Assembly (NCBI GenBank): GCA_905160935.1
Contig: CAJHZI010000451.1
Span: 614,001 to 678,000, forward strand
DNA length: 64,000 nucleotides
Direction of reading: 5' to 3'
Source of the DNA: Enchytraeus crypticus
Taxonomy: Eukaryota > Annelida > Clitellata > Enchytraeida > Enchytraeidae
The position numbers and the translations under genes are program-made. Under the pieces are notes generated by a model. It searched no databases, was not told the DNA's origin, and worked only from the letters and a program-made list of their open reading frames with translations. Positions 662 through 41,300 of the stretch are shown one piece after another; position 1 is the first letter of the stretch, and each line of letters opens with the position of its first letter.

Positions 662-765
662 GACCTATTGAGTTAGTGAAAGTCACTTTTCCCTGCTGGT
701 GGAAGTCTCTTACCTATTGAGTTGGTGGAAGTCTCTTACCTATAGAGTTGATGGAAGTCTCTTAC
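662..765 (-). repeat. Tandem copies of an IDH exon end with its splice donor
   Basis: Directly after the donor of the 766-906 exon, the intron repeats the last ~22 coding bases plus GTAAGAG in ~26-bp units (two short copies, then a third carrying ~40 exon bases). Each copy ends ATAG followed by GT, so each keeps a usable 5' splice site. Differences from the exon include TCC to TCT or TCA (both Ser) as well as a few amino-acid changes. Confidence 0.85.
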
Positions 766-3700
766 CTATGGAGTTGGTGGAAGTCTCTTTTCCCTGCTGG
801 TGGAAGCGGTAATGTCTCGTCACGGTTCCATGAGCCGCCTCAGCTTCCACTGTCTTCCCATCAGGACATATCAGCACACTCGTCATCATTCCCAGTGAAC
901 CGTATCCTGTACGACAATCAATCAATCAATCAATCAATTAATAATCAATCAATTAATCAATTAATAATCAATCAATAAATAAATCAATCAATCAACTTGT
1001 CATCATACCCAGTGAACCGTATCCTGTACGACAATCAATCAATCAATCAATCAATCAATTACTCTGCATCATGAACGATTTTCCTTCTTACAATACAATT
1101 ATGCCAGGTAACTGATCAACATTGAATGTTCTTGCTTAGTTGCCGCCTTTTAGTTTTCGTTATTTACACTATCCACTCCATAATTATAGTAATTGTTGAC
1201 TTTTGATAGTGCATTGATTGCAGCTGGCGCGGATTTAAGAATAACCTTCTAATATCCAGTATTTTTGTACATTCAATGCAGTCAGCACTCTAAGAAAGTT
1301 GCCATTTAAAATAAGTTTGGGTATGTATAATTAGTAAATATAACACAAACACATGCACGTGCAAACAATCATACACAAATATTCATAAGCTAACACAGAT
1401 ATAGACACAGACATACTATTATAAAGACAACAGACATACAAGTACAGATACATGAAAATACAGAAATACAAACACAGATACACTAATATATCATACAGAT
1501 ACAAACACACAAGCAAAGCAGACACACAAGCACACATACAGGCAGACACACAAGCAGACAGAGAAGCAGACATAAAATCAGGCATACAAGCAGACACACA
1601 AACTGACACACCAGCACACAAACAAGCAGACATACAAGCAGACACACCAGCAGACACACAAGCACACACAAAATCAGGCATACAAGCAGATGCACAAGCT
1701 GACACAAAAGCAGACATACAAGCAGACATACGGGCAGACATGCAAGCAGACATGTAAGCAGTCATACAATACGACATACAAGCCAACACAAACTGACACA
1801 CAAGCAGGCATACATGCAGACACACAAACAGACATACAAGCAGACAGAGAGGCTGACATACCTTGAGCAATAGAGTCAGACTGGACGTCACCATCGTAGT
1901 TCTTGCACGCCCAGACAAAACCTCCGTCAGACTTCATCGCCTGAGCCACCATGTCGTCGATCAGCCTGTGCTCATACCAGATCTTCTTCTCCTCAAACTT
2001 GGACCTGTACTCTCTGTTAACAAGCATAGCCCAAAACAATCATCTAATGAACATGGAGTTGATATAAACTTGGACCTGTACTCCCTGCCAACAGGCATCA
2101 CCAAAAACTAATGTTAATTAATCATTTAACGAACATGGAGCTGATTTAAAGCTGGACCTGTACTCTCAGCCAACAAGCATTGCCCAAAACAATCATTTAA
2201 TGAACATGGAGTTGATATAAACTTAGACTTGTACTCTCTGTCAACAAGCATAGCCCAAAACAATCAATTAATGAACATGGAATTGATATAAACTTGGACC
2301 TGTACTCTCAGCCAACAAACATGGCCCGAAACAATCATTTAATGAACATGGAGTTGATATAAACTTTGACCTTTACACCCTTCCAACAGGCATAGCCCAA
2401 AACATTCGTTTAATGCACATAGAATTGATATATACATGCGAGCATTAGGTTAAGAATTCATCTGTCTGTCGTGACGGTCGCGACTTGTGGAAAATGTGAT
2501 AGGATTTAATTTCTGTGTTCTCAATGAGCGACAATGATGCCAGGATTACATGAGTCCTGGCATTATCGTCATAAGAGTCATACAGTCACTCGCCTTATAA
2601 AAAGCTAGTGTTAACGTCAGTTTTCTCACTCGAAAGCGATGTCAGTGAAGGGCGAGCCCAGGCTTTGAACCCCGCACACACTGACCCGCAGTCGAATATC
2701 TTACTGACCATTGATATGCACATGTGTGTACAAAGCTTTATAGATGCGCACTTACATCTACAAAGCTTTATAGACATGCACATGCAAGTACAAACATAAA
2801 CATCTTATTAATCATTAAGTCACTAGGACCAAACCAAAGCAGTAATGAAATAATAATATAATTTAAAATTAATAATACAAACTTGTAAATCTCCTCAAAT
2901 ATATCCTTAAATCTTCCGTCATATTTCTTCAATATTGTGTTCTTTGTGCTGAAAAACAATCAAACAATAAATTCTAAATGGCACTTGTAAAGCATTGAAT
3001 CCAATTCCAAAAATTACTTGCCGCTAGCTACAAATAAATAAATTACATTTTTAAGCCTCCCATTCTCAATTTCACTACATTATAGATTTGAAACGTCAAT
3101 TTATTTGCTATAATTAGCGAACAGTACAGTACTCAATAATATAATCAAAAAGTTTGATTTCACATGCTTTATGACATATTTACAAAACATAACCAGTTAA
3201 AAAACATAAATGAAACAATTCAAGAGTATAAAATAAATACGTCAGCTTAGCAATCACAGTAAGATCATAAATAAGTAGATAAATCAATTAGATATACCTC
3301 ATATATAGCGGCATATCCTTTGCCAGGGCCATCTGGAATGAGGAATGGGCAAAGTCTCGGATAGACTACAACAAAAATATACACACGATATACATACAAA
3401 CATCATTATCATCATGCAAACATTATCACCATCACCATCATCAGTCAATCCTTTATTTAAATACGACATTATTCAAACAAGTGCTAATACATACGAGCAC
3501 ACGTAAGAGTAAATATATACCTTCTATACATGTATATATAACGTCTAAATATATGCACAAATGAAAACAATGCAAGTACAAAAAGAAATACTGAAAAAAG
3601 AACAAACGTGGACGTGAAAAAAGAAAAATATTGCAAGAAATACATGAATAACTACTTTAAATACTTGTAAAATTCTTAAACTATACACAACAGTGTCAAG

Positions 3701-38300: not shown

Positions 38301-41300
38301 GCAATCATCGATTGATTGATTGATCGAGAGATCCATTGATTGATTTATTGATCAAGAGATCCATCGATTGATTAAACGATTGATTGAGATATCCATCGAT
38401 TGATTAACTGATTGATCAAGCGATCCATCGATTGATTAGCTAATTGATTGAGAGATTCATTGAATGAATAACTGAATTAAGACATTCATAACATAATAAG
38501 ACATTCATCTATTGATTAACTGATTGATTGATAGAATCATGGCCGGATTGACTGACTTGAAGAACCGGAGATAGTCCCTGAGCTCAGGGGTGCGGGTGAT
38601 GTCGTTGGCCTGGTTGACGCTGGTGCCCTCCAGAGACACCTGGAGGTCGTTGAGTGCGGCGTCGATCTCGTCCTCAGGCTGATCTGTCGTGTCGAAGTCT
38701 GGCTGAGGTAGACCCGCCTGCTGCTGAATCTGATACTATCAGCAATCAATCAATCAATCAATCAATCAATCAATCAATGGTAGACCCGCCTGCTGCTGAA
38801 TCTGATACTATCAGCAATCAATCAATCAGTCAGTGGTAGACCTGCCTGTTGCTGAATCTGATAAAATCAGCAATCAATCAATCAATCGGTGGTAGACCCG
38901 CTTGCTGTTGAATCTGATACTGTCAGCAATCAATCAATCAATCACTCAGTCAGTGGTAGATGGTAGACCTGACTGCTGCGGAATCTGATACTATCAGCAA
39001 TCAATCAATCATCCCGCCAAATCAATCAATCAATCAATCAATCAGTGGTAGACCCGCCTGCTGCTGAATATGATACTATCATCAATCAAACAATTAATCA
39101 ATCACTCAATGAATCAATATATCAACAAAATCAATCAATCAGTCAACAAATCAATCAATTTATCATTAACCAATCAATCAGACAATCATTCAAATTAACC
39201 AACTAGTCAAATCAATAACCAATCAGTTATTCGATCAATAAATCAATCAAATAATTTACTAATCAATCAGTAAATCATTCCGTCAATCAAGCAGTCCAAT
39301 CATCCATCCACAAAATTCGACCAATCACCTACTGACAGACAAACAGGAGAGAGACATTTTTTAAAATTTCGCACAAATATTTAGACTTTAGAACTGCCAC
39401 AGCTGCCACTGCAGCCACAGCAGTTGACATGAGATGCCTAACTGAAGTTGTTTAGAACAGACAGCGGCAGCTGTGGAAACATTCTACAGTTACACTGATG
39501 TAAAAATCTCTGCAGATAAATTAGAGTCGTAAACTGGTTCACACGTAATTATTTGCTGAGAAAAACAACACATCAACTGTCAGAAAATACTTACAAACAT
39601 ACACGCACAAACACGAACCAACAACCACACACATAACAACAAGATAATTCCGCTAACAACCAATGATAATAGCATCATCATTCAGACCATCGACCGTTCC
39701 TTTTACAACCTAGCAACGATATCAGAGACGTTTCTGACAGTTAAAGGCCGAACCCAATAGCAGGTCCACCAATACACGGAAAAGCAGAGATGCTGAAAGA
39801 GCTCCAAGACTTAACCATGGACTCCTAGATATATATATATATATATATATATATATATATATATATATATATATACTGTATATATATGATGCTATATATA
39901 AAGGTGTCCATGGCTTAACACAGCGAAGGTCTAATTAATTAGTTAATTAATTTCTATCGATTTCTTGAACATAGTCTAAAATAACCGCAGAAAAATATAA
40001 TTAAATTTAAAATGATAAGAAAATTATTCTCCATAAAGATTAGTTCAATTTTACAAATTACTTCTTATACTGGTACAATTTGCTGTAATTATGGGTTTCG
40101 TCCAAAATTAATTGCTACAGAATAAAAATGTCATTGGCGTGAGTTATAAACACTATGTCAAGAAAAAAGGAAACAGAAAATGTGAGAGAGAGAGAGTGAG
40201 TGAGTCAGTGAGTGAGAAAAAGAGAGAAAGAGAGAGCTAGAGAGTGAAATAGAGAGCTAGAGAGTGAAAGAGAGAGCTAATGAGTGAAAGAGAGGACAGA
40301 GTGAGTGAGGGACTGAGACAGTTACAATATACCCGGAGTTAACGTTATTTCTCATTTGTTAGAGTGATGGTAGACAACTAGATCCATTTTGATCATTCTT
40401 CAATTTGAGGACAGAGCAACCGATTACAACCATAAACAAACATCAATGTAGACTGACCTGTAACGCAGCGAAAACCATCATCTCCTCTTCGGTGCAATCT
40501 ATTTCTTCAGATATCAACGACCATCTCGCCTGCTCGTAAATCTGATTGATTCTTACTGCATCATACTGCACATCAATCATCAGTTCATTAGAATCTAAGT
40601 AAAATATAAAATAAAATATAATAAAATAAATAAATAAGTAAAGTAAATAGATATTATATATATATATATATATATATATATATATATATATATATATATA
40701 TATATATATAATAATAATAATAATAATAATAATAATAATCATCATCCTCCCTTGAATCCCAGTGTTGGGATACAAATAATATAAAATAATAATAATAATT
40801 AATAAAATATAGATATAATAATAAATAATAACATAATAAATATATAATATAAATAAATACACGTATATAATAAATAAATAAATATATAAAATAAATTATA
40901 AAATATAAGAGAAATCACAGCATACAGACACATCATGCAAACATCATATAAATGAACATAAATGCATTACACTTAAATCTCATCAATCATTCAAATCAAA
41001 ATCAAACATCTTATTCACTGAATCCTGTGGCCATCAGAGAGGGTACTAAGTGCTCTATCTAGCTGACCACCATAATCAATCAGTCAAACAATCCATCAAT
41101 CAATAGAAATCAAACAAATTAAATCAATTCCGATATCAAAAACCATACCGCTTATTCACTGATTATCGATTGCAATGAAAAGCATTGCACTAGAAGTAAA
41201 TCAATCCACAACGATCAATAGTATCAACTCTGTCTTATCATCCTCATTCCACTAATTCTTTTGAAATCATTAAATATAGAATTGCAATAACTAGTACATA

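Follow-up and report, generated by a model that had tools for sequence, protein, structure and literature searches.

The minus strand of a 64,000-nucleotide stretch of the annelid Enchytraeus crypticus (G000:C358:614001-678000, hereafter the window) carries part of an NADP isocitrate dehydrogenase (IDH) gene and a kindlin coding sequence. In both genes, exon edges are copied in tandem into the adjoining intron. The genome assembly contained 524 Mb in 802 contigs. The kindlin coding sequence had 13 exons with 691 codons and a stop, and the joined exons read through. The joined IDH exons read through for 273 amino acids, and the next IDH exon was just beyond the window end. Stitched exon peptides matched human IDH1 chains at E 2e-153 and kindlins at E 7e-129. 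The closest named relatives of the kindlin were annelids (Ridgeia piscesae, 61%; Owenia fusiformis, 60%), with other sequences up to 75%, and it is from kindlin that the sequence itself points to a probable annelid. Among the matches listed for IDH, the best named ones were frogs (85-87%) and Owenia (85%); judged by sequence, the IDH similarity is uninformative on the taxon.

The arrays were direct tandem copies of a splice site together with 12-47 exon bases, lying in the intron next to the edge that they resemble. The original prediction had placed them at exons 906-766, 2013-1862, 36014-35908, 34858-34640 and 38729-38557. All five exons had AG/GT borders at these positions, and direct copies were found in the adjoining introns at the edges it had named. 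The 20 exons of both genes, each with 20 bp of flank, were used as queries to search the complete minus strand of the window. All 27 listed copies were located in the adjacent intron or 3' untranslated region (3'UTR) of their own exon. At E <1e-4, five copies were found at the IDH6 acceptor, one at the IDH7 acceptor, and three at the IDH7 donor; the acceptors of kindlin exons K7, K9, and K10 had five, six, and eight copies, respectively.

Exon IDH7 (766-906, minus strand, as for all exons and arrays below) had AG/GT borders and a protein match, and was copied at both edges. In its donor-edge array (662-765), further donors occurred after positions 740, 714, and 665, in units of 26, 26, and 49 bp. 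Splicing at any of the three outer donors would lengthen the exon by 26, 52, or 101 nt and shift the frame, as none of these lengths is divisible by three. The boundary read ATAG/GTAAG at the first three sites and ATAG/GTCTA at the last, and the bases after GT at the inner sites are now exon-derived. The single acceptor-edge copy of this exon (995-1043) was 96% identical over 49 bp and lay beside an (ATTG)n tract. Exon IDH6 (1862-2013) had an acceptor-edge array at 2065-2432, with five copies at a spacing of 71-82 bp and AG kept in three of the five.

In kindlin, the acceptor-edge array of K7 (exon 38557-38729; array 38759-39094) had five copies separated by (ATTG)n, and AG was kept in four. 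K7 also had one eroded donor-edge copy at 38182-38225, which is an addition to the predicted list; it was weak (74%, E 0.005) and failed E 1e-4. The acceptor-edge array of K9 (exon 35908-36014; array 36015-36434) had a unit spacing of 42-46 bp, and an outlying copy at 36395-36434 contained exon bases 16-55. The array of K10 (exon 34640-34858; array 34877-35490) had eight acceptor-edge copies at a spacing of 68-84 bp, all eight with AG. The coding end of kindlin was likewise copied, as predicted. The last coding exon (32321-32491; stop codon 32323-32321) was followed in the 3'UTR by two copies of about 93% identity (32145-32269), which contained the coding end, the stop, and 20 bp of 3'UTR. Since this coding end and its stop were copied, the process does not require a splice site. 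Under a lax edge test, 9 of the 38 edges in the window scored; two of these, the IDH6 donor and K8 donor, were judged simple-repeat or weak and were dropped later. A genome query with one array found it at one place only.

Edges of kinesin, TCP1, and adaptin exons elsewhere in the genome were analyzed, with myosin exons as a later, held-out set. The kinesin and TCP1 samples were the 30 top-ranking loci each among 128 and 57 matches, respectively; 20 stretches out of 36 matches were used for adaptin and 18 out of 81 for myosin. Splice sites beyond the window were predicted with a matrix built from 19 donors and 19 acceptors in the window, and some certainly misplace the edge. Edges with a predicted site score <2 were left out. 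Intronless or long-frame kinesin and TCP1 matches (L011, L012, L041, L059, and L060) were omitted from the edge and tile tests, and L079 from the replicate tile test, in which near and deep intron of adaptin and myosin were compared.

Copies were found at 33 of 193 edges in the five gene sets by the lax test, and inverted copies at 2 of 193. In the four sets without myosin, 27 of 161 edges had copies in their own intron (24 of 161 with a low-complexity filter). By set, the lax counts were 9/38 for the window, 5/42 for kinesin, 9/48 for TCP1, and 4/33 for adaptin. The inverted-strand control gave 2 of 161 edges, and the mismatched-intron control gave 1 of 483 draws unfiltered and 6 of 483 filtered. 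A first look at kinesin and TCP1 had shown an inverted match in 3 of 60 loci. Myosin exons had copies at 6 of 32 edges versus 0 of 32 inverted; one of the six was in an interspersed repeat and one was weak. The strict set (E <1e-4, doubtful edges dropped) contained 23 arrays out of the 193 edges. For instance, eight copies spaced 44 bp apart lay at a kinesin donor, and four copies spaced 83 bp apart at a TCP1 acceptor. The predicted recurrence in unrelated genes was thus confirmed, and it extends beyond this locus. Two TCP1-family matches (G000:C259:222108-222410 and G000:C400:247840-248142) lay on different contigs, had equal score and frame length (894 amino acids), and are perhaps a duplicated or allelic segment.

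The introns of the sampled loci contained dense direct tandem duplications, mostly of 25-130 bp. In kinesin and TCP1, intronic pseudo-edges scored at 349 of 2193 places unfiltered and 244 of 2193 filtered, the places being overlapping and not independent. Real edges of the same loci scored at 14 of 90, with the filter or without, and interiors of exon matches at 17 of 449 tiles. Window arrays with a period of at least 20 touched 7 of 38 edges, compared with 5.7 ± 2.4 under circular shifts (P 0.38); with a period of at least 12, they touched 8 of 38, compared with 6.3 ± 2.6 (P 0.33). Exon edges in general are no hotter than ordinary intron positions, since pseudo-edges scored alike and the circular shifts gave no significant excess. 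The comparable load at pseudo-edges and real edges supports an origin of the arrays by ordinary duplication.

Acceptors and donors were not affected equally. Arrays were found at 22 of 99 acceptors and 11 of 94 donors (p 0.058, lax test); without the myosin set, the counts were 19 of 82 and 8 of 79 (p 0.035). On the acceptor side of kinesin and TCP1, duplication coverage was 0.364 in near intron and 0.136 in deep intron (n=55, p 0.0003), or 0.242 and 0.100 after filtering (p 0.004), an enrichment of roughly 2.5-fold. The donor side of these loci showed no near/deep difference (p 0.76 and 0.84). The acceptor side of adaptin and myosin showed the same direction without significance (0.274 and 0.179, p 0.21; filtered 0.216 and 0.116, p 0.11).

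A strand-biased tetranucleotide was also observed. Of 99 acceptors, 23 had a sense-oriented tract of (ATTG)2 or longer in the 60 bp upstream, and none had an antisense one. Within 60 bp downstream of donors, the antisense form occurred at 10 of 94 and the sense form at 0 of 94. Deeper intron had a weaker sense bias (12 versus 5 of 82; 13 versus 7 of 79). Examples in the window are the tracts at 34859-34890 and 38730-38778. The tract may have a U-rich or branch-point-like role, or may be tolerated in that orientation alone.

It is possible, at somewhat long odds, that acceptor regions are a special target, where the 3' end of the intron, for example sense (ATTG)n, provokes or rewards duplication of an acceptor cassette. 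The larger share of acceptors with arrays, the near/deep gradient in kinesin and TCP1, and the strict orientation of (ATTG)2 are in its favor. However, the gradient was not significant in adaptin and myosin, and arrays occurred at 8 of 23 acceptors with (ATTG)2 and at 14 of 76 without, a difference short of significance (p 0.15).

Synonymous and replacement changes between exons and copies were counted with each site and base change taken once, so that shared changes were collapsed. Arrays were bootstrapped under two mutation models. The L017 acceptor, L079 donor (site probably misplaced), IDH6 donor, K8 donor, M4 donor (interspersed repeat), and L096 acceptor (weak) were dropped before the final counts, as were copies with <75% identity or <10 aligned exon bases. 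Edges whose copies failed E 1e-4 contributed nothing. The 23 arrays had 66 synonymous and 75 replacement changes, with 25-27% synonymous expected, giving an omega of 0.38-0.42. The original prediction had counted about 29 synonymous to 12 replacement differences by hand; with changes counted once, the window gave 26 to 24. The excess itself holds, being above the approximately 25% synonymous expected, and it persists after shared changes are collapsed and arrays bootstrapped.

Changes separating the exon from all copies were 12 synonymous and 2 replacement (omega 0.06-0.07); with one doubtful edge still included, they were 12 and 4. This class represents the constrained exon. At single-copy sites, there were 18 synonymous and 32 replacement changes (omega 0.59-0.66, upper limit 1.07-1.19), which fits a neutral copy set against an exon under constraint. 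Among copies, 36 synonymous and 41 replacement changes gave an omega of 0.40-0.45, with array bootstrap 95% limits of 0.26-0.71 under both mutation models. Changes private to one copy had an omega of 0.44-0.50 (28 synonymous, 35 replacement; limits 0.31-0.75), and those common to some copies 0.26-0.30 (8 synonymous, 6 replacement). When CpG changes were omitted in a slightly larger set, among-copy changes had an omega of 0.39 (p 0.0003) and private changes one of 0.49 (p 0.012). On inspection, the arrays contained near-identical units and variants common to some copies.

The whole excess could come from comparing unconstrained copies with one constrained exon, without any exchange, which we regard as improbable at about one chance in a few. 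The single-copy omega is near the 0.5 expected with one of two lineages constrained, and private changes at sites with at least four copies are compatible with neutrality. However, the among-copy omega still has limits below 1, and the exon branch should not count there if the copies arose once. The among-copy excess suggests that copies exchange sequence with the translated exon or have repeatedly arisen from it. A hand mixing of the exon class with neutral change would place the origin of about one third of the among-copy changes in the exon. The predicted exchange with the exon is supported in part by the excess among copies; another part of the excess comes from the constrained branch of the exon, which had not been set apart in the prediction.

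The original prediction had also offered use of the copies as alternative splice sites, selected as protein-coding or regulatory variants, and this is very unlikely. Copies did mostly keep AG or GT, as it had stated (70 of 78 alignable sites, including two edges dropped later), and their scores were near those of true sites; these points and the synonymous excess would agree with such use. True sites nevertheless scored higher, with a mean of 7.6 versus 6.6 at 19 edges (p 0.015), on a small matrix built from window sites, and AG/GT retention is expected in young copies anyway. Exon extension was examined from 59 copy sites keeping AG or GT, a set which includes the doubtful L017 edges and excludes myosin. 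None gave an open in-frame extension: 54 contained a stop and the other five shifted the frame. This argues against selected protein variants, and use of the copies as alternative splice sites for protein is not supported. The test covers exon extensions; an outer acceptor could pair with a donor inside the array to form a small exon of its own, and unproductive splicing could act in regulation. Spacings were divisible by three in 12 of 63 cases, spacings within an array not being independent, so there is no sign of frame keeping. An assembly artefact is hardly credible: tandem arrays are prone to mis-assembly, but units within the arrays differ from one another, and five gene sets on many contigs show the pattern.

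The arrays are probably minisatellites of the type called mirages in amphioxus, produced by ordinary tandem duplication in a duplication-rich genome and tolerated because only the innermost site gives readable mRNA. A duplicated stretch that happens to span an exon edge would copy the splice site too. Among the competing sites, the innermost one, attached to the full exon, would alone yield readable mRNA, since in silico every outer site tested adds a stop or shifts the frame. The outer copies would then behave as intron. Exon definition is the pairing of acceptor and donor across the exon, and it is the likely reason for choice of the inner site. Later slippage or unequal exchange would enlarge the array, with the exon-attached unit taking part, and some copies would thus carry changes that arose while translated, as the synonymous excess suggests. 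From this excess, exon ends seem to share in array turnover. A tentative extension, which we consider doubtful, is that exon ends are continually recycled through intronic arrays, with the coding end and the copies belonging to a single family that exchanges sequence.

Several observations count against the duplication and turnover account. In kinesin and TCP1, intron 30-250 bp upstream of an exon match was duplicated more than deeper intron, and this enrichment is unexplained by random placement alone. A simple outward conveyor of copies was not seen: at K7, inner copies carry synonymous changes, and the outermost one is identical to the exon at all 23 bases that it covers. Private changes at sites with at least four copies were not significantly constrained (7 synonymous, 12 replacement; omega 0.54-0.60, limits 0.24-1.76), so the turnover step rests on the smaller arrays.

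The original prediction knew of no described system of this kind, which was incorrect. Amphioxus mirages are known in Adh3, the globins BflGb6 and BflGb9, PGBD5, troponin C, and others, with units of 150-160 bp in the globins and 10-72 bp for Adh3, and their splicing and length instability were studied there. The present arrays are alike in that the tandem unit spans the exon-intron boundary, 5' and 3' boundaries are both affected (lax test), and many, not all, units keep AG/GT. They differ in being from an annelid, in affecting 23-33 of 193 sampled edges, in having units mostly of 25-130 bp, and in that a synonymous excess was measured. On these three shared features, as read from the sequence of one assembly, the arrays fit mirages by anatomy.

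Intron gain by tandem genomic duplication is an idea attributed to Rogers (PMC3087553). In PMC3443670, tandem duplication of an exonic AGGT stretch creates a new intron, and a short tandem duplication likewise makes extra splice sites in a gene. The units here, in contrast, include intron and splice site, span an existing boundary, and lie in an existing intron. The Caenorhabditis elegans repeat CeRep25B is also an intronic minisatellite near splice decisions, lying near alternatively spliced exons; the available text of PMC4039745 presents the unit as a member of a dispersed sequence family and does not describe it as copied from the neighboring exon edge. Among the papers listed from the open-licence literature on minisatellites, splice sites, intron gain, and annelids, none was recognized as an annelid case of such arrays.

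Other features were observed in the window. A glutamine-rich open frame on the plus strand (11442-13706) has 754 amino acids from stop to stop. Exon-like minus-strand frames at 17495-27360, which we presume to resemble the TFIIH subunit GTF2H1, were kept out of the edge tests. An interspersed repeat with TTAACGTCAGTTTCCTCACTCGAAAG (at most 3 mismatches) occurs six times, on both strands (2611-2636, 18291-18316, 26284-26309, 31126-31151, 33565-33590, and 34014-34039). An imperfect inverted repeat around TATAGGGACAGTAGCC at 115-210 resembles a small foldback element. A search of a phage collection with 10 kb of the window gave no match.

In kind, the exon-edge arrays are an ordinary consequence of a duplication-rich genome, but they are frequent and lie outside the chordates, and they may exchange sequence with the exon. 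Exon-edge minisatellites had been described from a few genes of lancelets, and they prove frequent in a different animal lineage. Two matters can now be put to the test: the way in which the spliceosome passes over a series of nearly identical decoy sites, and whether coding ends and the copies in their introns evolve jointly. If exon ends are recycled through the arrays, protein sequence at exon borders would evolve partly by array turnover, and the arrays would record past states of the exon.

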